Of a DNA stretch of 64,000 nucleotides, positions 41,668-50,561 are shown one piece after another (within the stretch, counting starts at the first letter, position 1; the number at the start of each line of letters is the position of its first letter). The notes beneath the pieces are model-generated. The model was not told the DNA's origin and made no database searches. It was given only the letters and a program-made list of their open reading frames with translations. The stretch comes from Mesohalobacter halotolerans (GTDB lineage: Bacteria; Bacteroidota; Bacteroidia; Flavobacteriales; Flavobacteriaceae), in assembly GCF_006120725.1 (NCBI RefSeq), contig NZ_SWMU01000002.1, forward strand, positions 1 through 64,000, in the 5' to 3' direction. Both the position numbers and the translations under genes were made by a program.

Positions 41668-42204
41668 ATGCTGATAGCTAAATTTATTTTTAAATTCCTC
41701 TTAGGTTGGCAGATCAAAGGCCAATTTTCAGCAGAGGTAAAAAAGACAGTTGTCGTTGTAGCGCCACATACTAGCTGGCACGATTTTTATATTGGTGCAT
41801 TGGCCAGAAAAATTGTACACGTTCCGATACATTATGTAGCTAAAAAAGAATTGTTTGACTCTTGGTTTGGTTGGTATTTTAGATGGATGGGTGGCGCACC
41901 GATAGACCGTTCTTCATCGCAAAACAAAGTCGATCAAATTGTTGATATATTTAATTCTAAAACAGAGTTTCGTTTAGCGATTACACCAGAAGGTACCAGA
42001 AAGAAGGTTAACAATTGGAAATCAGGGTTTTATTATATTGCTAAAAATGCTAAAGTTCCAATAACTTCAGTTGCTTTTGATTATGCAACCAAAACAATTT
42101 CGATATCAAAACCATTTTATATTACAGGAGACTATGAAAAAGATCTGCGTCATATTAAATCCTATTTTAGTGACGCTGTCGGAAAAGTGCCTGAATATAC
42201 ATAA
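41668..42204 (+). CDS. 1-acylglycerol-3-phosphate acyltransferase-like protein
   Basis: A 178-residue PlsC-type acyltransferase. The catalytic HxxxxD motif is 'HTSWHD' in 'VVAPHTSWHDFYIGALA'. 'GGAPIDRSSSQNK' (acceptor-binding block II) and 'AITPEGTRKK' (block III) follow. It is shorter than E. coli PlsC, like other cytoplasmic-face members of the family. It may acylate lysophospholipid or another hydroxyl acceptor. It is followed by the aromatic leader region but not obviously linked to it. Confidence 0.88.
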   Translation: MLIAKFIFKFLLGWQIKGQFSAEVKKTVVVVAPHTSWHDFYIGALARKIVHVPIHYVAKKELFDSWFGWYFRWMGGAPIDRSSSQNKVDQIVDIFNSKTEFRLAITPEGTRKKVNNWKSGFYYIAKNAKVPITSVAFDYATKTISISKPFYITGDYEKDLRHIKSYFSDAVGKVPEYT

Positions 42205-42260: not shown

Positions 42261-42268
42261 TATATTTG
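42261..42268 (+). promoter_or_regulatory. Possible -7 promoter box for the phe/tyr leader
   Basis: TATATTTG fits the Bacteroidota -7 consensus TAnnTTTG and lies 38 nt upstream of the leader ORF. A matching -33 TTTG at the usual spacing is not seen, so the assignment is tentative. Confidence 0.4.
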
Positions 42269-42305
42269 CACATTTCATTTTAATCTCTAACTTAGCTAAC
42301 ACATT

Positions 42306-42377
42306 ATGACAAATATCACTTTTTTCTGGAACAGTTTCTATTATGCTTTTTATAAAAGTATAAGGGACTGTTGTTGA
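42306..42377 (+). CDS. Aromatic leader peptide
   Basis: A 23-codon ORF: starts MTNITFFWNS, continues FYYAFYKS, ends IRDCC, TGA stop. Eight of 23 codons are aromatic (four Phe, three Tyr, one Trp), clustered at codons 6-8 and 11-16. It ends 24 nt before a strong terminator that precedes pheA. Its last codons contain GGGACT (42364-42369), which can pair with AGTCCC in the 5' arm of the terminator. Function by inference: ribosome stalling at the aromatic codons during Phe/Tyr shortage lets the antiterminator form. No product role of its own is expected. Confidence 0.85.
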   Translation: MTNITFFWNSFYYAFYKSIRDCC

Positions 42378-42401
42378 AAATATTTAACAATATTTAAAAA
42401 T

Positions 42402-42433
42402 AAAAGTCCCGAACCTGTTTCGGGACTTTTTTT
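42402..42433 (+). terminator. Attenuator terminator of the phe/tyr operon
   Basis: AAAAGTCCCGAA (42402-42413) and TTCGGGACTTTT (42419-42430) form a perfect 12-bp stem with a 5-nt loop, followed by seven T (42427-42433, partly in the stem). It is 15 nt before the pheA ATG. Its 5' arm has AGTCCC complementary to GGGACT inside the leader ORF, which would make the alternative antiterminator. Confidence 0.9.
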
Positions 42434-42448
42434 GATTAATACTTTATT

Positions 42449-43276
42449 ATGACTCAACGCATAGCCATTCAAGGCATAAAAGGCTCAAACCACCATAAAG
42501 TGGTCTGTGATTTTATTTCAACAAAAGCTGAAATCAAAGCCTGCATGAGTTTTAATAATTTGGTAAAAGCCATCATAACAAATCAGGTTGATTATGGTAT
42601 TATGGCAATAGAAAATTCTATTGCAGGTAGTATTCTGCCAAATTATAAGCTAATTAGCGATCATGATTTAAACATTACTGCTGAATATTACTTAGATATC
42701 AAACATAATCTCGCAGCCTTAGAAGGTCAAAAATTAGATGAAATTAAAACAGTAAATTCACATCAAATGGCGTTTTTGCAGTGTGGTGATTTTTTATATC
42801 AACAAAAACACCTCAAGTTGGTTGAAGATGTAGACACCGCCTTACCGGCACAAATTATTGCCGAAAAACAAATTTCACATGTCGCGGCAATAGTGCCAGA
42901 TGGCACAGCTGAGTTATTTGGTTTAGAGGTTTTGAAATCTCATATCCAAGACAACGACCTTAACTCTACACGTTTTGTAAAAGTTGAAAGGAATTCACAA
43001 ATTTTACCAAACCAGTCTGCAGATAAAGCTTCTATCCGATTTGAATTGGCTCACGAACCAGGCAGTTTATTTAAGGTTTTGGCCTTATTGCAAGAATACA
43101 ATGTCAATATGACAAAAATTCAATCGATTCCTACTGCACATTCCAAATGGAATTATGCGTTTTATATCGATTTGATTTTTTTACCTGAAATTGATATAAA
43201 AAAATTAATGAAAACACTAAAATCAATTACCCATCATTTTAAACTTCTCGGAATCTATAAACAAGCTCAAAAATGA
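42449..43276 (+). CDS. pheA: Prephenate dehydratase
   Basis: Phenylalanine branch: prephenate to phenylpyruvate. 275 residues with a PDT domain (about 1-180; 'IAIQGIKGSNHHKVV', 'GIMAIENSIAGSI', 'STRFVKV') and a C-terminal ACT domain (about 195-270; 'FELAHEPGSLFKVLALLQEYNVNMTKIQSIP'), which senses phenylalanine in related enzymes. There is no N-terminal chorismate mutase; that activity is supplied by the DAHP synthase fusion three genes downstream. It is the first structural gene after the attenuator. ATGA overlap with the next gene. Confidence 0.95.
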   Translation: MTQRIAIQGIKGSNHHKVVCDFISTKAEIKACMSFNNLVKAIITNQVDYGIMAIENSIAGSILPNYKLISDHDLNITAEYYLDIKHNLAALEGQKLDEIKTVNSHQMAFLQCGDFLYQQKHLKLVEDVDTALPAQIIAEKQISHVAAIVPDGTAELFGLEVLKSHIQDNDLNSTRFVKVERNSQILPNQSADKASIRFELAHEPGSLFKVLALLQEYNVNMTKIQSIPTAHSKWNYAFYIDLIFLPEIDIKKLMKTLKSITHHFKLLGIYKQAQK

Positions 43277-44430
43277 TAACATCTGCCGACCGTCTAGCTC
43301 AAACCAAAGAATATTACTTCTCTAAAAAATTAAAAGAAGTCAAGCGTCTGATTGACGATGGAAAACCTATCATTAATCTTGGCGTAGGTTCACCCGATAT
43401 CAACCCACCTGAGTCTGTTGTTGAAACCATGATTAAAGCAACATCGCACCATAAAGCTCATCAATATCAACCTTACGCAGGTATTCCCAGTTTACGGGAA
43501 GCCATAAAATCTTTTTATGAGCAAACTTATCAAATTAAACTATCTGCTGTCCAGCAAATTTTAACACTTATAGGAAGTAAAGAAGGCATTATGCATATTT
43601 CAATGGCCTTTTTAAACCCAGGTGATGAAGTTTTGGTGCCAAACCCAGGCTATCCAACCTACGCAGCAGTTTCAAATCTGGTTCAAGCCAAAACTTTATT
43701 ATACAATTTAAATGAAGCTCAGAATTGGCAACCTGACCTAGATGAACTCTCAAAACTGATAAGTCCAAAAACCAAACTCATGTGGGTCAATTACCCACAT
43801 ATGCCTACAGGCGCAAAAGCTGATAATGAAACTATTGATAAACTTGTAAAGTTTGCCAAAGTTCATAATATATTGCTGGTTAATGATAACCCGTATAGCT
43901 TGATTCTCAATGATAATCCTTTTAGCATTTTAAAACACCAGTGGCCAAACGCCCATGTTTTAGAGCTAAATTCACTCAGTAAAACCTTTAACCTTTCGGG
44001 CTGGCGAGTCGGAATGCTTTGTGGTCATCAAAATTTACTACAACAGGTCGTTAAAGTAAAATCTAATATGGACAGTGGTATGTTTTACCCGATTCAAAAA
44101 GGTGGCGAAAAAGCATTAAAACTACCATCAGAATGGTATGAAAAACTAAATTATACTTATAAAAAACGCCGAGAATTAGTTTGGCAAATTTGTGATCAAC
44201 TTCAATTGACTTACCAAAAAAACACTTCAGGTCTTTTTGTTTGGGCCAAAATTCAATCTCAGCATTCTGCCAAAGACTTATCCGATAAGTTACTGCACAA
44301 TTATGATATGTTTGTGACACCAGGCGATGTTTTTGGCTCTCGAGGTCAAGGCTATTTAAGGTTTTCGCTCTGTGTAAATCAAGACGAATTAAGGACATGT
44401 ATAGAACGCACAAAACACTTTAAAGCATGA
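43273..44430 (+). CDS. Class I/II aminotransferase, probably aromatic
   Basis: A 385-residue fold type I PLP enzyme. PLP lysine is Lys237 in 'LNSLSKTFNLSGWRVGMLCG'. 'NLGVGSPDINPPESVVETM', 'VPNPGYPTYAAVSNL' and 'LFVWAKI' are typical. Between pheA and tyrA it most likely transfers the amino group to phenylpyruvate and hydroxyphenylpyruvate. Similarity to LL-diaminopimelate/aspartate aminotransferases is also present, so substrate range is inference from position. It overlaps pheA and tyrA by 4 nt each. Confidence 0.92.
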   Translation: MITSADRLAQTKEYYFSKKLKEVKRLIDDGKPIINLGVGSPDINPPESVVETMIKATSHHKAHQYQPYAGIPSLREAIKSFYEQTYQIKLSAVQQILTLIGSKEGIMHISMAFLNPGDEVLVPNPGYPTYAAVSNLVQAKTLLYNLNEAQNWQPDLDELSKLISPKTKLMWVNYPHMPTGAKADNETIDKLVKFAKVHNILLVNDNPYSLILNDNPFSILKHQWPNAHVLELNSLSKTFNLSGWRVGMLCGHQNLLQQVVKVKSNMDSGMFYPIQKGGEKALKLPSEWYEKLNYTYKKRRELVWQICDQLQLTYQKNTSGLFVWAKIQSQHSAKDLSDKLLHNYDMFVTPGDVFGSRGQGYLRFSLCVNQDELRTCIERTKHFKA

Positions 44431-45281
44431 AAACAATTATTGGTGTAGGTCTCGGTTTAATAGGCGGTTCCATGCTTTTGAGCTTAAAACGCTTTTACCA
44501 GCAAGCTGAATTTTTAGGGGAAGATAACAATGAAGACCATCTTCAACAAGCTAATGACTTAAACATCGTCAGTAGAAAAGCAAAAGACCAAGATTTTAAA
44601 ACTGCAGACCTTGTGATTGTAAGTATTCCCGTAGATACCGCGCCAAAGCTTATTGAAAAATTATTAGATCAAGTTGGCACACAAACTTTAGTCATAGATA
44701 CAGGTTCAACCAAAGCTAAACTTTGTGAGCATTTGGCTAAACATCCTAAACGCGACCAATTTATGGCGACGCATCCTATTGCTGGAACAGAATTTTCTGG
44801 TCCGCAAGCAGCATTTCCATCTTTGTTTGACCATAAAACTATGATCATTTGCGAAATCGAAAAAACCAATTTAAAACTCCAGCAAAGGGCTATTCAGTGC
44901 TTCGAAAACATGCAAATGAATTTGCGATATATGAATCCTGTCGCCCATAATAAACACATGGCTTATGTTTCACATTTATCTCACATCAGCTCTTTTATGC
45001 TTGGTAAAACCGTAATTGATAAAGAAGAAAACGAACGCAATATTTTTGACCTTGCCGGTAGTGGATTTGAATCTACGGTTCGTTTAGCCAAAAGTAACCC
45101 AGCCACATGGACGCCTATTTTTAAACAAAATAAAACATTTGTTTTGGAAGCACTTTCAGAATATATCCATAATTTAAAGAATTTTGAAAAGGTGCTTGAA
45201 CACGATAATTTTGAACAACTCTATAAAGATATGAATAACACAAATATTGTAAAAGACATTCTAAAAGGCATAAAACTTTAA
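44427..45281 (+). CDS. tyrA: Prephenate dehydrogenase
   Basis: Tyrosine branch: NAD(P)+-dependent oxidative decarboxylation of prephenate to 4-hydroxyphenylpyruvate. 284 residues: 'IIGVGLGLIGGSMLL' dinucleotide motif, 'VIVSIPVDTAP', 'VIDTGSTK', 'ATHPIAGTEFSGPQAAFPSLF', and 'MAYVSHLSHISSFML' with the catalytic histidine region, 'FDLAGSGFESTVRLAKSNPATWTPIF'. No ACT domain. Overlaps the aminotransferase by 4 nt and is followed after 12 nt by the DAHP synthase fusion. Confidence 0.95.
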   Translation: MKTIIGVGLGLIGGSMLLSLKRFYQQAEFLGEDNNEDHLQQANDLNIVSRKAKDQDFKTADLVIVSIPVDTAPKLIEKLLDQVGTQTLVIDTGSTKAKLCEHLAKHPKRDQFMATHPIAGTEFSGPQAAFPSLFDHKTMIICEIEKTNLKLQQRAIQCFENMQMNLRYMNPVAHNKHMAYVSHLSHISSFMLGKTVIDKEENERNIFDLAGSGFESTVRLAKSNPATWTPIFKQNKTFVLEALSEYIHNLKNFEKVLEHDNFEQLYKDMNNTNIVKDILKGIKL

Positions 45282-45293
45282 AATAATAGCACT

Positions 45294-46385
45294 ATGACAA
45301 ATCAAAAAAAATTTAAAAATTGGCTTCAAGCTTTTCAGCTTGACCATCCTTTGGTCATTGCTGGCCCTTGTAGCGCAGAGACTGAAAAACAGGTATTGAC
45401 CATAGCTCATCAGCTCAAAGATACCGATACTTCTGTGATGCGAGCGGGTATTTGGAAACCTAGAACCAAACCTGGAAATTTTGAGGGTGTGGGCAAAATT
45501 GGTTTGGACTGGCTCAAAAAAGCAAAAGCAGAAACAGGACTTAAAATCGCCACTGAAGTGGCCAATAAAACCCATGTTGACATGGCACTTGAAGCCGATG
45601 TTGATGTGTTGTGGATTGGTGCGCGAAGCACGGTGAGTCCATTTATCGTTCAAGATATTGCCGATGCGCTGAAAGGAACCGATAAAATTGTGTTGGTCAA
45701 AAATCCCGTTAATCCGGATTTACCACTTTGGCTTGGTGCTATAGAACGTTTGCACAAAGCGGATATTCAAAATCTTGGCGTGATTCATCGAGGATTTTCG
45801 ACTTATGAAAAAACCGGATATAGAAACAATCCCGAATGGCAACTGGCGGTAGATTTGCAAAATGAATTTCCAGATCTGCCTTTAATTCTAGATCCCTCGC
45901 ATATTGCCGGTAAACGCGATATTATTTTTGATATATGCCAAACTGCATTAGATTTAAATTATGACGGCATTATGGTTGAAACCCATCACACTCCAGATGA
46001 AGCCTGGAGCGATGCTGCTCAACAAATTACACCTCAAGCTTTGGCTCAAATGACCGAAGATTTAAAAATCAGAAAAGAACATGGCGATGCCGCTGAATTC
46101 AAAAATAAACTTAATACCTTGAGAGCCAAAATTGATGTGGTTGACCATCAAATCATCAATCAATTGGGAAAACGCATGAAAATTACCGATGACATCGGGG
46201 CTTTAAAAAAGAAAAATAACGTCGCTATTTTACAAACCAAACGGTGGAATGAAGTTTTAGACAAAATGGTAAGTGAAGGCCAAGACAATGGTTTAAGTGA
46301 GGAATTTGTGACTAAATTTTTAAAAGCCATTCACCAAGAGTCGATTGCACATCAACATCAAGTTTTAGTCAATGATAAAAAATGA
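45294..46385 (+). CDS. Bifunctional DAHP synthase / chorismate mutase
   Basis: Two shikimate activities on one chain of 363 residues. Residues about 1-260 are a type I-beta DAHP synthase ('HPLVIAGPCSAETEKQV', 'RAGIWKPRTKPGNFEG', 'LVKNPVNPDLPLWLGAIERL', 'LILDPSHIAGKRD', 'VETHHTPDEAWSDAAQQI'). Residues about 270-355 are an AroQ-type chorismate mutase ('LRAKIDVVDHQIINQLGKRMKITDDIGALKKKNNVAI'). The fusion order (synthase first) is the one known from Bacteroidota. It gives the operon both entry to the pathway and prephenate formation. Confidence 0.94.
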   Translation: MTNQKKFKNWLQAFQLDHPLVIAGPCSAETEKQVLTIAHQLKDTDTSVMRAGIWKPRTKPGNFEGVGKIGLDWLKKAKAETGLKIATEVANKTHVDMALEADVDVLWIGARSTVSPFIVQDIADALKGTDKIVLVKNPVNPDLPLWLGAIERLHKADIQNLGVIHRGFSTYEKTGYRNNPEWQLAVDLQNEFPDLPLILDPSHIAGKRDIIFDICQTALDLNYDGIMVETHHTPDEAWSDAAQQITPQALAQMTEDLKIRKEHGDAAEFKNKLNTLRAKIDVVDHQIINQLGKRMKITDDIGALKKKNNVAILQTKRWNEVLDKMVSEGQDNGLSEEFVTKFLKAIHQESIAHQHQVLVNDKK

Positions 46386-46409: not shown

Positions 46410-47363
46410 ATGAAAGGCATTGTCTATAAATCTACAGGCAGTTGGTATCAGGTCAAAGCACTTGATGGTTTGGATTATAACTGCAAACTCAAAGGTAAAA
46501 TAAGGCTTCAAGGCCTGAAGAGCACTAATCCTGTAGCTGTAGGCGATAAGGTCAATTTTGAAGTCACCAAAGATGGTGATGAAGCCATTGGCATTATCAC
46601 AGATTTTGAAGACCGTAAAAATTACATCATTCGTAAATCGGTTAATTTATCTAAACAAACCCATATTATTGCAGCTAATGTTGATTTGGCGTTTTTGGTG
46701 ATTACGCTCAATAATCCGGAGACGACCACAATCTTTATTGATAGGTTTCTCGTGTCTTCTGAAGCTTATGATGTCACAACGATTTTGTTGTTTAATAAGC
46801 TAGATACGTTAGATACAAATGAATTTGGAGAATTTAAATACCTCGCCGAAATCTATCGTGATATTGGCTATCACTGTATTGGTGTTTCTGCCACAAGCGG
46901 AAAAAATCTCGACCAAGTCAAAGACTTGATGATTGATAAAGTCAGTGTATTTGCCGGTCATAGTGGTGTCGGTAAATCCAGTATTATCAATGCGATGGAT
47001 GACAATATTAACATTAAAACTAAAGCCATATCAGAACAACACGCACAAGGTCAACACACCACAACTTTTGCAGAAATGCATGACACGCATTTTGGGGCTA
47101 AAATTATTGATACACCAGGGATTCGAGGATTTGGAATGATCAACATGGAAAAAGAAGAGCTCGGCGATTATTTTAGAGAGTTTTTTGCCTTAAAATCAGA
47201 GTGTAAATTTCATAACTGCCTACATGTCAACGAGCCTAAATGTGCCATTAAAGCTGCCTTACAGGAAGACATTATCGCTTATTCCAGGTATAAAAGCTAT
47301 TGCCAGATTTTGAACGAGTTGGAAGAACAAGACCAAACGTTTAGAAAAAATCCTTATGCTTAG
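46410..47363 (+). CDS. rsgA: Ribosome biogenesis GTPase RsgA
   Basis: A circularly permuted GTPase that checks maturing 30S subunits. 317 residues: N-terminal OB domain, then G4 'LLFNKLD', G5-like 'VSATSGK', G1 'FAGHSGVGKSSIIN', G3 'IIDTPGIRGFG', and a C-terminal zinc motif 'CKFHNCLHVNEPKCAIK'. It starts 24 nt after the DAHP synthase gene and may be read through from the phe/tyr operon, though function is unrelated. Confidence 0.96.
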   Translation: MKGIVYKSTGSWYQVKALDGLDYNCKLKGKIRLQGLKSTNPVAVGDKVNFEVTKDGDEAIGIITDFEDRKNYIIRKSVNLSKQTHIIAANVDLAFLVITLNNPETTTIFIDRFLVSSEAYDVTTILLFNKLDTLDTNEFGEFKYLAEIYRDIGYHCIGVSATSGKNLDQVKDLMIDKVSVFAGHSGVGKSSIINAMDDNINIKTKAISEQHAQGQHTTTFAEMHDTHFGAKIIDTPGIRGFGMINMEKEELGDYFREFFALKSECKFHNCLHVNEPKCAIKAALQEDIIAYSRYKSYCQILNELEEQDQTFRKNPYA

Positions 47364-48157: not shown

Positions 48158-49486
48158 TTACTCTTTGTTATCTATTACCTTAGAATTTTTAGGATAATCA
48201 TCATCCCAGTTTTTAACTTGAGGATCGTGAAGTTGATTTTGAGATTTTGCAATAAGCATTGAAACGGTAGCATCTCCAGTGACATTTACAGAAGTTCTTA
48301 ACATATCTAAGGGCCTATCCATTGCAAAAATTAGCGCCAGACCTGCTTCAGGAATCCCAGCTTGACCTAAAACGATTACCAACATGACCATACCTGCACC
48401 AGGAACAGCAGCAGAACCAATAGAAGCTAAAGTAGCTGTTGCAATAATTCCCAGTTGTGTCCCAAGTGTTAAGTCCATACCAAAAGCTTGAGCGATGAAA
48501 ACTGCAGCAACAGCTTGATATAGGCTTGTGCCGTCCATATTGATAGTTGCACCAATAGGCAAGACAAAACTAGCAACCTGAGGATGTACGCCAATATGTT
48601 CTTCTACGCGCTCCATGGTTAATGGTAGGGTAGCAGCACTGGAACTTGTGGAGATTGCGAGCAGTTGAGCCGGAGAAATTCCGTTTAAAAAGAATCCTGG
48701 AGACTTTTTCGTAAAGATCCACACGAACATGATGTAAACACCTATCATCAGTGCCAAGCCTGAAACGACAGCAAGCGTGTAGTATAGCAAAGCATAAAAC
48801 AAATCTGCTGAGGGTGCTTCGACGACTAATGCCGCCATGAGTGCTAAAACGCCATAAGGTGCAGCAAGCATTATGATATCAATCATTTTGAGGATAACTT
48901 CATTAAACCCATCAAAAAAATCTTTAACAGGTTTTGACTGTTTGTCGGGAATTAAAATCAAACCGATACCAAAAAAAATAGCGAAAAAAATCACCTGTAA
49001 CATATTACTATTATCAGAAGCTGCACCAAAAATATTGTCCGGCACTAAGTCTTCTAGAGCTTGAAGTGGCCCACTTTCCTTTTGACGTTCAGCATCTTGC
49101 TTTTTAAGTTCTGCGTCACCTGCATAGGCGTCAAGCAATTCTTGTCGGGTATCATCGTCTATTGAAGTTCCCGGTTGTATGAGATTTACCACACCTAAAC
49201 CAATACTTACTGCAATGAGAGTGGTGAAAATATAAGTTACAATTGTTTTAAGCCCCATTTGTGATAAACTAGAGATATCTTTTAAATCTGAAACGCCTTT
49301 GATTAAAGATGCTAGAATTAAAGGGACAGCGATGAGCTTGAGTGAGTTGATGAAAATATTTCCAAAAGGCTTTATCCAATCGGTGATAATTTGACTTCCC
49401 CATGTAAATTGTGTAAAAAGCAATCCAATTAAAATACCGGCTGCCATGCCAATAAGGATTTGCCAATGAAGAGCTATTTTTTTCAT
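48158..49486 (-). CDS. Dicarboxylate/amino acid:cation symporter
   Basis: A 442-residue DAACS/GltP-DctA family secondary transporter with about eight membrane helices and two re-entrant hairpins. 'ISTSSSAATLPLTM' is the serine-rich HP1 motif; 'NMDGTSLYQAVAAVFIAQAFG' is the NMDGT substrate/Na+ site; 'GSAAVPGAGMVML' and 'DRPLDMLRTSVNVTGD' are HP2 and TM8 motifs. The conserved Arg in TM8 ('MLRTSVNVTGD') suggests an acidic substrate such as aspartate, glutamate or C4-dicarboxylate. An insertion of about 30 residues rich in charged amino acids lies near residue 120. Confidence 0.93.
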   Translation of the reverse strand: MKKIALHWQILIGMAAGILIGLLFTQFTWGSQIITDWIKPFGNIFINSLKLIAVPLILASLIKGVSDLKDISSLSQMGLKTIVTYIFTTLIAVSIGLGVVNLIQPGTSIDDDTRQELLDAYAGDAELKKQDAERQKESGPLQALEDLVPDNIFGAASDNSNMLQVIFFAIFFGIGLILIPDKQSKPVKDFFDGFNEVILKMIDIIMLAAPYGVLALMAALVVEAPSADLFYALLYYTLAVVSGLALMIGVYIMFVWIFTKKSPGFFLNGISPAQLLAISTSSSAATLPLTMERVEEHIGVHPQVASFVLPIGATINMDGTSLYQAVAAVFIAQAFGMDLTLGTQLGIIATATLASIGSAAVPGAGMVMLVIVLGQAGIPEAGLALIFAMDRPLDMLRTSVNVTGDATVSMLIAKSQNQLHDPQVKNWDDDYPKNSKVIDNKE

Positions 49487-49496
49487 AAAACTTTAA

Positions 49497-50561
49497 TTAT
49501 AAGTTTGAAGATTTATTCATTAAGTAAAAGTCCGCCATCACTAAAGCTGCCATAGCTTCAACAATAGGAATTGCACGCGGTACAACACAAGGGTCGTGAC
49601 GGCCTTTGCCCTTAACTGTAACTTCATTATGGTCTTTATCAATGCTGTTTTGGTCTCGAATTAAGGTTGCCACAGGTTTAAAAGCAACATTAAAATAAAT
49701 ATCCATACCATTTGAAATTCCACCTTGGATGCCACCACTGTAATTTGTTGAGGTTTTTCCATCTTTGGTAAAACTGTCATTATGATCGCTACCTTTCATA
49801 GTTGTGCCTTTAAAACCACTTCCATATTCAAAGCCTTTTACTGCATTAATCGATAACATGGCTTTACCGAGTTGAGCATGAAGCTTATCAAAAACAGGTT
49901 CACCAAGACCCACAGGTACGTTTTGAATCACACAAGCTACTATACCACCAATGGTATCGCCTTGCTTTCTAATTGACTTGATGTGAGTAATCATTTTATT
50001 GGCTAAATCTTGATCTGGACACCTGACCGAATTTTTTTCGATGTGTTTGAAATCAAGTTCTTGATATGTTTTACTGAGTTTAATCTCACCTATAGAACTT
50101 GTAAAGGCAGTTATCTTTATCGGATCAATAAGTTGTTTGGCAATTGCTCCGGCAACTACTCGACATGCCGTTTCTCGAGCACTAGAACGTCCACCTCCAC
50201 GGTAATCGCGATTGCCATATTTTTTAGTATAGGTAAAATCGGCATGGCTTGGCCGGTATACATCTTTGATATGGTCGTAATCTTTTGACTTTTGATCGGC
50301 ATTTGGAATTTGAAATCCAATAGGAGCCCCTGTAGTTTTACCCTCAAATAGTCCGGACAAAAACTCAACTTTATCCGATTCTTTACGTTGAGTTACAATG
50401 GCTGATTGCCCAGGTTTTCTTCGATCCAAATCCAACTGAACTTTTTCTAAATCCAGTTTGAGATTTGCCGGACAACCGTCTATGATACCACCAATGGCTT
50501 TACCGTGTGACTCTCCATAGGTCATTAATTTAAAAACATGTCCAAAATTATTTCCTCCCAT
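49497..50561 (-). CDS. aroC: Chorismate synthase
   Basis: Last shikimate step: EPSP to chorismate with reduced FMN. 354 residues: '[28 protein letters not shown]', '[14 protein letters not shown]', '[44 protein letters not shown]', '[23 protein letters not shown]', '[24 protein letters not shown]'. All family signatures are present. It is separate from aroB and from the pheA operon but supplies the latter with chorismate. A gene for a symporter follows on the same strand. Confidence 0.97.

Follow-up and report, generated by a model that had tools for sequence, protein, structure and literature searches.

A probable Phe/Tyr transcription attenuator upstream of pheA in Mesohalobacter halotolerans and its relatives in Flavobacteriaceae

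The stretch of Mesohalobacter halotolerans DNA analysed here (64,000 nt, the window) carries upstream of pheA a leader which, we hold with high confidence, is a classical, ribosome-mediated transcription attenuator that responds to the charging of tRNA-Phe and tRNA-Tyr. A complete Phe/Tyr attenuator had been proposed at this place in an earlier note on the same DNA, and the proposal now finds support in the anatomy of the element, its conservation, the covariation between its RNA strands and their spacing. Most known cases of classical attenuation come from Proteobacteria, for example E. coli pheL, where a Phe-rich leader peptide and a terminator before pheA are combined with an alternative pairing. 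Judged by sequence comparison, the element described here is real and complete, ordinary in kind and unusually well supported by its relatives. What is new is mainly the documented breadth of its occurrence and the very short predicted 5' untranslated region.

Anatomy of the leader and the proposed switch

The elements of the leader and the genes behind it, all on the forward strand, are as follows.

42265..42268, + strand: predicted -33 promoter element TTTG, 19 nt ahead of the -7 element
42288..42295, + strand: predicted -7 promoter element TAACTTAG, of the conserved form TAnnTTnG
42306..42377, + strand: leader peptide ORF MTNITFFWNSFYYAFYKSIRDCC, stop included
42321..42353, + strand: regulatory codons 6-16 (Phe Phe Trp Asn Ser Phe Tyr Tyr Ala Phe Tyr)
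42330..42372, + strand: protector hairpin, strand 1 (42330-42350) paired with 42354-42372 over GGGACT, from the fold and synonymous-codon controls
42364..42369, + strand: strand 2, antiterminator GGGACT in leader codons 20-22, covarying with strand 3 over 126 leaders
42402..42413, + strand: strand 3, 5' arm of the terminator, with AGTCCC at 42405-42410, from sequence and fold
42419..42433, + strand: strand 4, 3' arm of the terminator (42419-42430) and T-run (42427-42433), core pairs kept
42449..43276, + strand: pheA, prephenate dehydratase (NF008865, E 6.6e-56, 189.5 bits, under the cut-off of 219)
43273..44430, + strand: PLP-dependent aminotransferase, LL-diaminopimelate/aspartate aminotransferase-like (best families under their cut-offs)
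44427..45281, + strand: tyrA, prephenate dehydrogenase (NF006307, 343.9 bits, above the cut-off of 295)
45294..46385, + strand: DAHP synthase-chorismate mutase fusion (both domains, E 7.5e-55 and 7.2e-14, under the cut-offs)
46410..47363, + strand: rsgA, ribosome small-subunit GTPase (TIGR00157, above the cut-off), on the same strand after a gap of 24 nt

The leader ORF extends from the ATG at 42306 to the TGA at 42375-42377, which gives 24 codons including the stop and a peptide of 23 residues. Eight of the 23 codons are aromatic (4 Phe, 3 Tyr and 1 Trp), with Phe-Phe-Trp at codons 6-8 and Phe-Tyr-Tyr-Ala-Phe-Tyr at codons 11-16, and the frame given in the earlier note proved exact to the base. 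The terminator consists of a perfect 12-bp stem (42402-42413/42419-42430), a loop of 5 nt and a run of seven T (42427-42433), and the distance from the T-run to the pheA ATG at 42449 is 15 nt; the stem and this distance were verified base by base, as were the positions of GGGACT and of AGTCCC, to which it is complementary. The fold of 42290-42450 has a z of -5.3, and none of 200 shuffles was equally stable. In the fold of the window leader, GGGACT is hidden within the protector hairpin. This hairpin and the promoter are additions to the earlier reading.

The promoter consensus of flavobacteria is TTTG / TAnnTTTG with the final G at -5, according to PMC6847099, and the two elements upstream of the leader agree with it. 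The transcript is consequently predicted to start near 42300, about 6 nt ahead of the leader ATG. The earlier proposal stood or fell with a transcript start upstream of 42306, and promoter-like sequence is indeed a regular companion of these leaders: of 124 leaders, 119 have a TAnnTTnG no more than 60 nt from their ATG (15.1 by mononucleotide shuffling), and 88 have a TTG 18-20 nt ahead of this -7 element (0.8 by shuffling). The -7 element and the start codon are separated by at most 10 nt in 24 of the 119 pheA leaders having TAnnTTnG, where it should be noted that such distances hinge on the chosen start codon and that the transcript starts are predicted ones. In F. johnsoniae, transcripts preceded by a likely promoter have a mean leader of 33 nt, and in 87% of them it exceeds 10 nt (PMC6847099). 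Another candidate for the -7 element in the window, TATATTTG at 42261-42268, was dropped in favour of the conserved TAACTTAG.

The scheme that we infer from these parts, in which the transcript start, the stalling of the ribosome, the switch itself and the response to Phe and Tyr are all predicted from the observed anatomy, conservation, covariation and spacing, would run as follows. RNA polymerase would initiate near 42300, and a ribosome would load almost at the 5' end and read the leader. Under a shortage of Phe or Tyr, the ribosome would wait at codons 6-16 with its edge at or before 42363, blocking strand 1; strand 2 (GGGACT) would then be free to pair with the emerging strand 3 (AGTCCC), no terminator would form, and pheA, tyrA and the DAHP synthase/chorismate mutase gene would be transcribed. 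When both amino acids are plentiful, the ribosome would reach the stop at 42375 and cover strand 2, and strands 3 and 4 would terminate transcription near 42433. Without translation, the 1:2 hairpin would hide strand 2, again with termination as the outcome.

The calculated energies are informative about the nature of such a switch. If a ribosome is taken to be stalled at codon 16, RNA that extends to strand 3 or to the loop folds best as the antiterminator (-15.1 kcal/mol). Once strand 4 has emerged, the terminator fold reaches -23.1 kcal/mol versus -17.6 kcal/mol with the antiterminator enforced. Since the terminator beats the antiterminator at equilibrium, the switch would have to be kinetic, by the order of folding. 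In the ribosome-free case, protector and terminator both form in the complete RNA, while for an RNA ending at strand 3 the minimum-energy fold is the antiterminator and not the full protector hairpin.

The genes behind the leader fit its aromatic codons, as the earlier note had argued: pheA, tyrA and the DAHP synthase/chorismate mutase gene were matched by family models, and their products make Phe and Tyr. A homologue of the DAHP synthase/chorismate mutase lies downstream of pheA in 34 of the 38 named loci having at least 4 kb downstream. The aminotransferase is probably the aromatic transaminase of the pheA operon, and a homologue of it is present in the pheA locus (flanks of 1.5 kb) in 30/30 loci (L034-L063, the window's included). 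It is possible that rsgA is the last gene of the transcription unit. A few genes further downstream, within 48158-50561 on the minus strand, aroC (chorismate synthase) and, by eye, a dicarboxylate-type transporter-like gene are found; aroC is outside the attenuated unit. The PheA protein of the window is 87% identical to that of L164 but only 49% identical to that of a genome of the same genus (G199, locus L229). The latter distance is about that to other genera, which on the sequences could possibly reflect transfer or rapid divergence.

Conservation ahead of pheA

A search with the leader DNA among 149 Flavobacteriaceae genomes matched 62/149 at E 0.01, mostly weakly, and was replaced by reading the sequence upstream of pheA. 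Within the window's own genome, a second stretch (L003) matches the first part of the leader over 27 bases; by eye it is the start of an outer-membrane-type protein gene, and the match was set aside as chance. The pheA gene could be located in 130 of the 149 genomes, the window's own included, and an aromatic leader with a terminator precedes it in 126 of these 130, three of them completed by eye or by a further script. The terminator exceeds the scan threshold in 125/130, and L152, with leader and terminator seen by eye, is the 126th. Directly upstream of pheA, no terminator was found in the other four of the 130 (L088, L091, L129 and L134).

The set used for alignment comprises 126 leaders, that is, the 125 over the terminator threshold and L164. 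An aromatic ORF, the window's among them, is present within the stretch used in 124 of the 126, and the alignment of homologous leaders that the earlier note had called for thus bears out the conservation of the aromatic codons. As for the other two, the leader of L060 (MSKQYFYSGSFFYFFFKREAGLL) lies farther upstream than the aligned stretch, and in L105 the aromatic run is present while the leader start is lost at the contig end. In L060 (genome G080) the whole attenuator is found about 330 nt ahead of pheA, a gap that is below about 110 nt in most relatives.

A strict automatic rule for leader plus terminator gave a similar picture, with 113/123 family loci and 148/182 loci overall passing, versus 2/910 dinucleotide shuffles. 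It should be noted that the leaders share descent, and the counts are not numbers of independent events. This bears on a first alternative, in which the hairpin would be the ordinary terminator of the acyltransferase gene upstream (41668-42204) and the aromatic ORF a chance frame in T-rich DNA. The acyltransferase gene has the same orientation, with its end some 200 nt ahead of the hairpin, and TTT and TAT triplets are common in DNA of such composition. However, of the 61 named loci and L034-L063, a homologue of the acyltransferase was found only in the window and in L164, whereas leader and terminator stay with pheA; moreover, promoter-like sequence separates the acyltransferase gene from the leader, chance rarely produces the combination, as the shuffles indicate, and strand 2 covaries with the terminator (see below). 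We therefore rejected the terminator of an upstream gene, a neighbour that is not conserved while the leader is, and regard this explanation as extremely improbable.

The attenuator reading can be followed beyond the family as well. In a set of 61 contigs, 59 had enough upstream sequence and 35 met the strict rule; loci passing it include 2/4 Rikenellaceae, 2/2 Alistipes, one Chitinophaga and two Marinilabiliales contigs, and none of eight Prevotellaceae contigs passed, one being too short to judge. In a phylum-wide draw, pheA was found in 98 of 118 genomes. For other families of the same class, 10 of 12 genomes were positive by eye, including L247 with a weak T-run, and no leader was seen by eye in L237 and L238. 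Outside the class, two were positive among the seven genomes read, of 75. In L239 and L244, which belong to two different families of the class, two tandem Phe/Tyr leader-terminator units are seen by eye before a single pheA.

Covariation, spacing and known systems

The terminator is kept almost without exception, with the six base pairs at its core (strand 3 with strand 4) intact in 751/756 cells of the 126 aligned leaders. For the pairing of strand 2 with strand 3, the position of strand 2 was taken as the best complementary match within 21 columns of the alignment. In the plain MAFFT alignment, strand 2 is one base off register between the GGGACT and GAGACT clades, and the 2:3 pairs hold in 431/755 cells, or in 614/755 after a one-base slide. 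Because this register shift makes the 2:3 pairs look poor, we turned to a test that is independent of register and compares own with permuted partners. The mean helix score of strand 2 with its own strand 3 is 5.96, versus 4.95 (sd 0.07) for permuted partners, and none of 1000 permutations exceeded 5.17. A score of at least 5 is reached by 121/126 own pairs and by 45% of mismatched pairs; since the versions of strand 3 are alike and mismatched pairs often score 5, the evidence for covariation is the shift of the whole distribution. Matching changes can be seen directly in strands 2/3/4, for example CGGGACT/AGTCCCG/CGGGACT (L036), CGAGAC/GTCTCG/CGAGAC (L064), CCGGGTT/AACCCGG/CCGGGTT (L147) and AAGGCT/AGCCTT/AAGGCT (L146). 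Three leaders of the 126 (L050, L057 and L157) show poor 2:3 pairing.

The spacing between the aromatic codons and strand 2 is also restricted. The last aromatic codon precedes strand 2 by 10, 11 or 12 nt in 23, 68 and 12 of 124 leaders (103 in all). Aromatic residues occupy codons 3-6 upstream of strand 2 in 105-124 of 124 leaders, and then 7/124, 0/122 and 0/121. A ribosome with a codon in its A site covers about 10 nt beyond that codon, which is the footprint assumed here. With Tyr16 in the A site its edge would be at 42363, leaving GGGACT (from 42364) just free, with a margin of nil; the earlier claim that a ribosome stalled at codons 11-16 leaves GGGACT free is upheld under this footprint. 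At the spacing prevailing in the 124 leaders, a ribosome halted on the last aromatic codon would likewise just clear strand 2. The stop codon is 7-17 nt past the start of strand 2 in 106/124 leaders, so a terminating ribosome would cover strand 2. The narrow range of 10-12 nt suggests a ribosome closely trailing RNA polymerase in Flavobacteriaceae.

Upstream pairing of strand 2, as expected of a protector, averages 0.738 versus 0.638 in synonymous-codon controls, being higher in 100/124 leaders and not in 24/124; for the window the values are 0.99 and 0.67. Relative to the leader reading frame, strand 2 is in phase 2, 1 and 0 in 77, 27 and 20 leaders, respectively, and its occurrence in all three frames indicates that it is the RNA which is kept there and not the C-terminal peptide.

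Then, could the product of the ORF itself be active, as a small protein with a function of its own or as a nascent-chain arrest peptide responding to free aromatic amino acids? In favour of this, the neighbours of the aromatic run show partial conservation in one clade (YFWNGFYFYFFFKRGTGLL), although protector pairing may explain part of the Asn-Gly/Ser conservation. Against this, the peptide ends vary in sequence, in length and in their frame over strand 2, the conserved feature is a set of aromatic codons at a fixed distance from an RNA strand, and the trpE and hisG leaders of the family have a like design with other regulatory residues. We consider an active peptide very unlikely, if marginally less so than the upstream terminator, and return to the attenuator that senses charged tRNA. 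For the latter, Phe is found at codons 3, 4 and 5 upstream of strand 2 in 96, 97 and 101 of 124 leaders, and Tyr at codon 6 in 83/124, while the 124 leaders contain 699 Phe, 458 Tyr and 87 Trp in total. Across the family, the main signal as read from these codons is probably Phe and the second Tyr.

Like E. coli pheL (RF01859, Phe_leader), the element has a Phe-rich leader and a terminator ahead of pheA with an alternative pairing. Unlike in pheL, Tyr and Trp codons are mixed into the leader, the operon adds tyrA and the DAHP synthase/chorismate mutase gene, and the promoter is of the Bacteroidota type with a predicted 5' untranslated region of about 6 nt, which leaves no room for a Shine-Dalgarno sequence. 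The window element scores 20.0 bits with the Phe_leader model, far below the gathering score of 55; it would work like pheL, yet is outside this Rfam model. The best match under threshold is Thr_leader (25.7 bits versus 55), mostly on the terminator.

A structured 5' untranslated region with a terminator and without an Rfam family might also suggest another RNA mechanism, namely a riboswitch, a T-box or a protein-bound leader. However, no Rfam model, those of T-boxes and riboswitches included, matched the window element or four loci of homologous leaders at gathering score, by which a known riboswitch or T-box was ruled out, and the conserved spacing is accounted for by a translating ribosome. 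Mechanisms of this kind are, in our view, as improbable as the terminator of the upstream gene. The pheA leaders form a well-defined family of probable ribosome-mediated attenuators, and in the stretches searched none of the Rfam models reaches its gathering score with them.

According to the earlier note, few tested attenuators are known in Bacteroidota, and our literature search agrees, in that no tested Phe attenuator was found for this phylum in the literature covered, most subscription journals being outside its scope. A 2010 work by Lopatovskaya may describe Bacteroidota attenuators. The pheA element, however, had been pointed at before: in the transcriptome of Flavobacterium psychrophilum, a conserved structured 5' element was noted upstream of pheA and in other genera of Flavobacteriaceae, without Rfam hits, together with clues to leader-peptide attenuation upstream of amino-acid operons (PMC9723704). 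It is very probably the same element as that of the window, though the portion of that article covered here gives no leader peptide, strands or covariation for pheA. Within the same phylum, short ORFs in long 5' untranslated regions of Bacteroides thetaiotaomicron have been likened to attenuation leaders; the example given precedes a hypothetical protein, and the available part of the article mentions no Phe attenuator (PMC7366714).

Sister leaders ahead of trpE and hisG

Two further leaders of the same design, each with an antiterminator repeat and a terminator, were found in the same genome.

Locus L226, contig C7, 1334-1459: Trp attenuator before trpE, WWW leader MIFNNKTNWWWSHTFFMS (from 1334), with GTCGTGAG at the leader stop complementary to the terminator's CTCACGAC
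Locus L225, contig C5, 1227-1351: His attenuator before hisG, GTG start, His-Phe-His leader (V)IIQWQHFHNYFRAVKR (from 1227), with TCAAGCGG repeating the 3' arm of the terminator

For ilvD, no match was found in the genome. Among 60 family genomes, trpE was found in 54 and hisG in 49, and the 30 loci listed for each gene were examined, counting those of the own genome. Every trpE leader among them contains two or more Trp within eight codons (three in 28/30), and every hisG leader contains two or more His (three or more in 29/30). By the rule for leader plus terminator, 30/30 trpE and 29/30 hisG loci were positive, versus 0/600 shuffles each. The own His leader has only two His in eight codons, compared with three to six in the other 29 hisG loci, and two His alone are weak evidence, being reached by 151/600 shuffles. 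Consequently, the case for the own-genome His leader is made by the terminator, the repeat and the relatives of this leader.

These trpL- and hisL-type attenuators share the design of the pheA leader and differ in the regulatory residue and in the predicted absence of a 5' untranslated region. In the own genome, the start codon of the trpE leader is 4 nt past its -7 element TATATTTG, and that of the hisG leader is likewise 4 nt past a -7 element, by which both leaders are predicted to be leaderless. Over the family, the start codon is no more than 8 nt past the -7 element in 14/30 trpE leaders, and in 17/30 hisG loci no -7 element was found by the pattern used, which makes the near-leaderless idea weakest at hisG.

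Tentatively, and with more doubt than conviction, we suggest that Flavobacteriaceae, with no Shine-Dalgarno starts, carry matched Phe/Tyr, Trp and His attenuators whose leader peptides start at or near the 5' end of the RNA, where a near-leaderless start would load the ribosome at once and so replace strong recruitment for the pacing of ribosome and polymerase. If true, this would mean tight coupling of transcription and translation in Bacteroidota. The pheA leaders could serve as natural reporters for such coupling and for Shine-Dalgarno-free translation starts.
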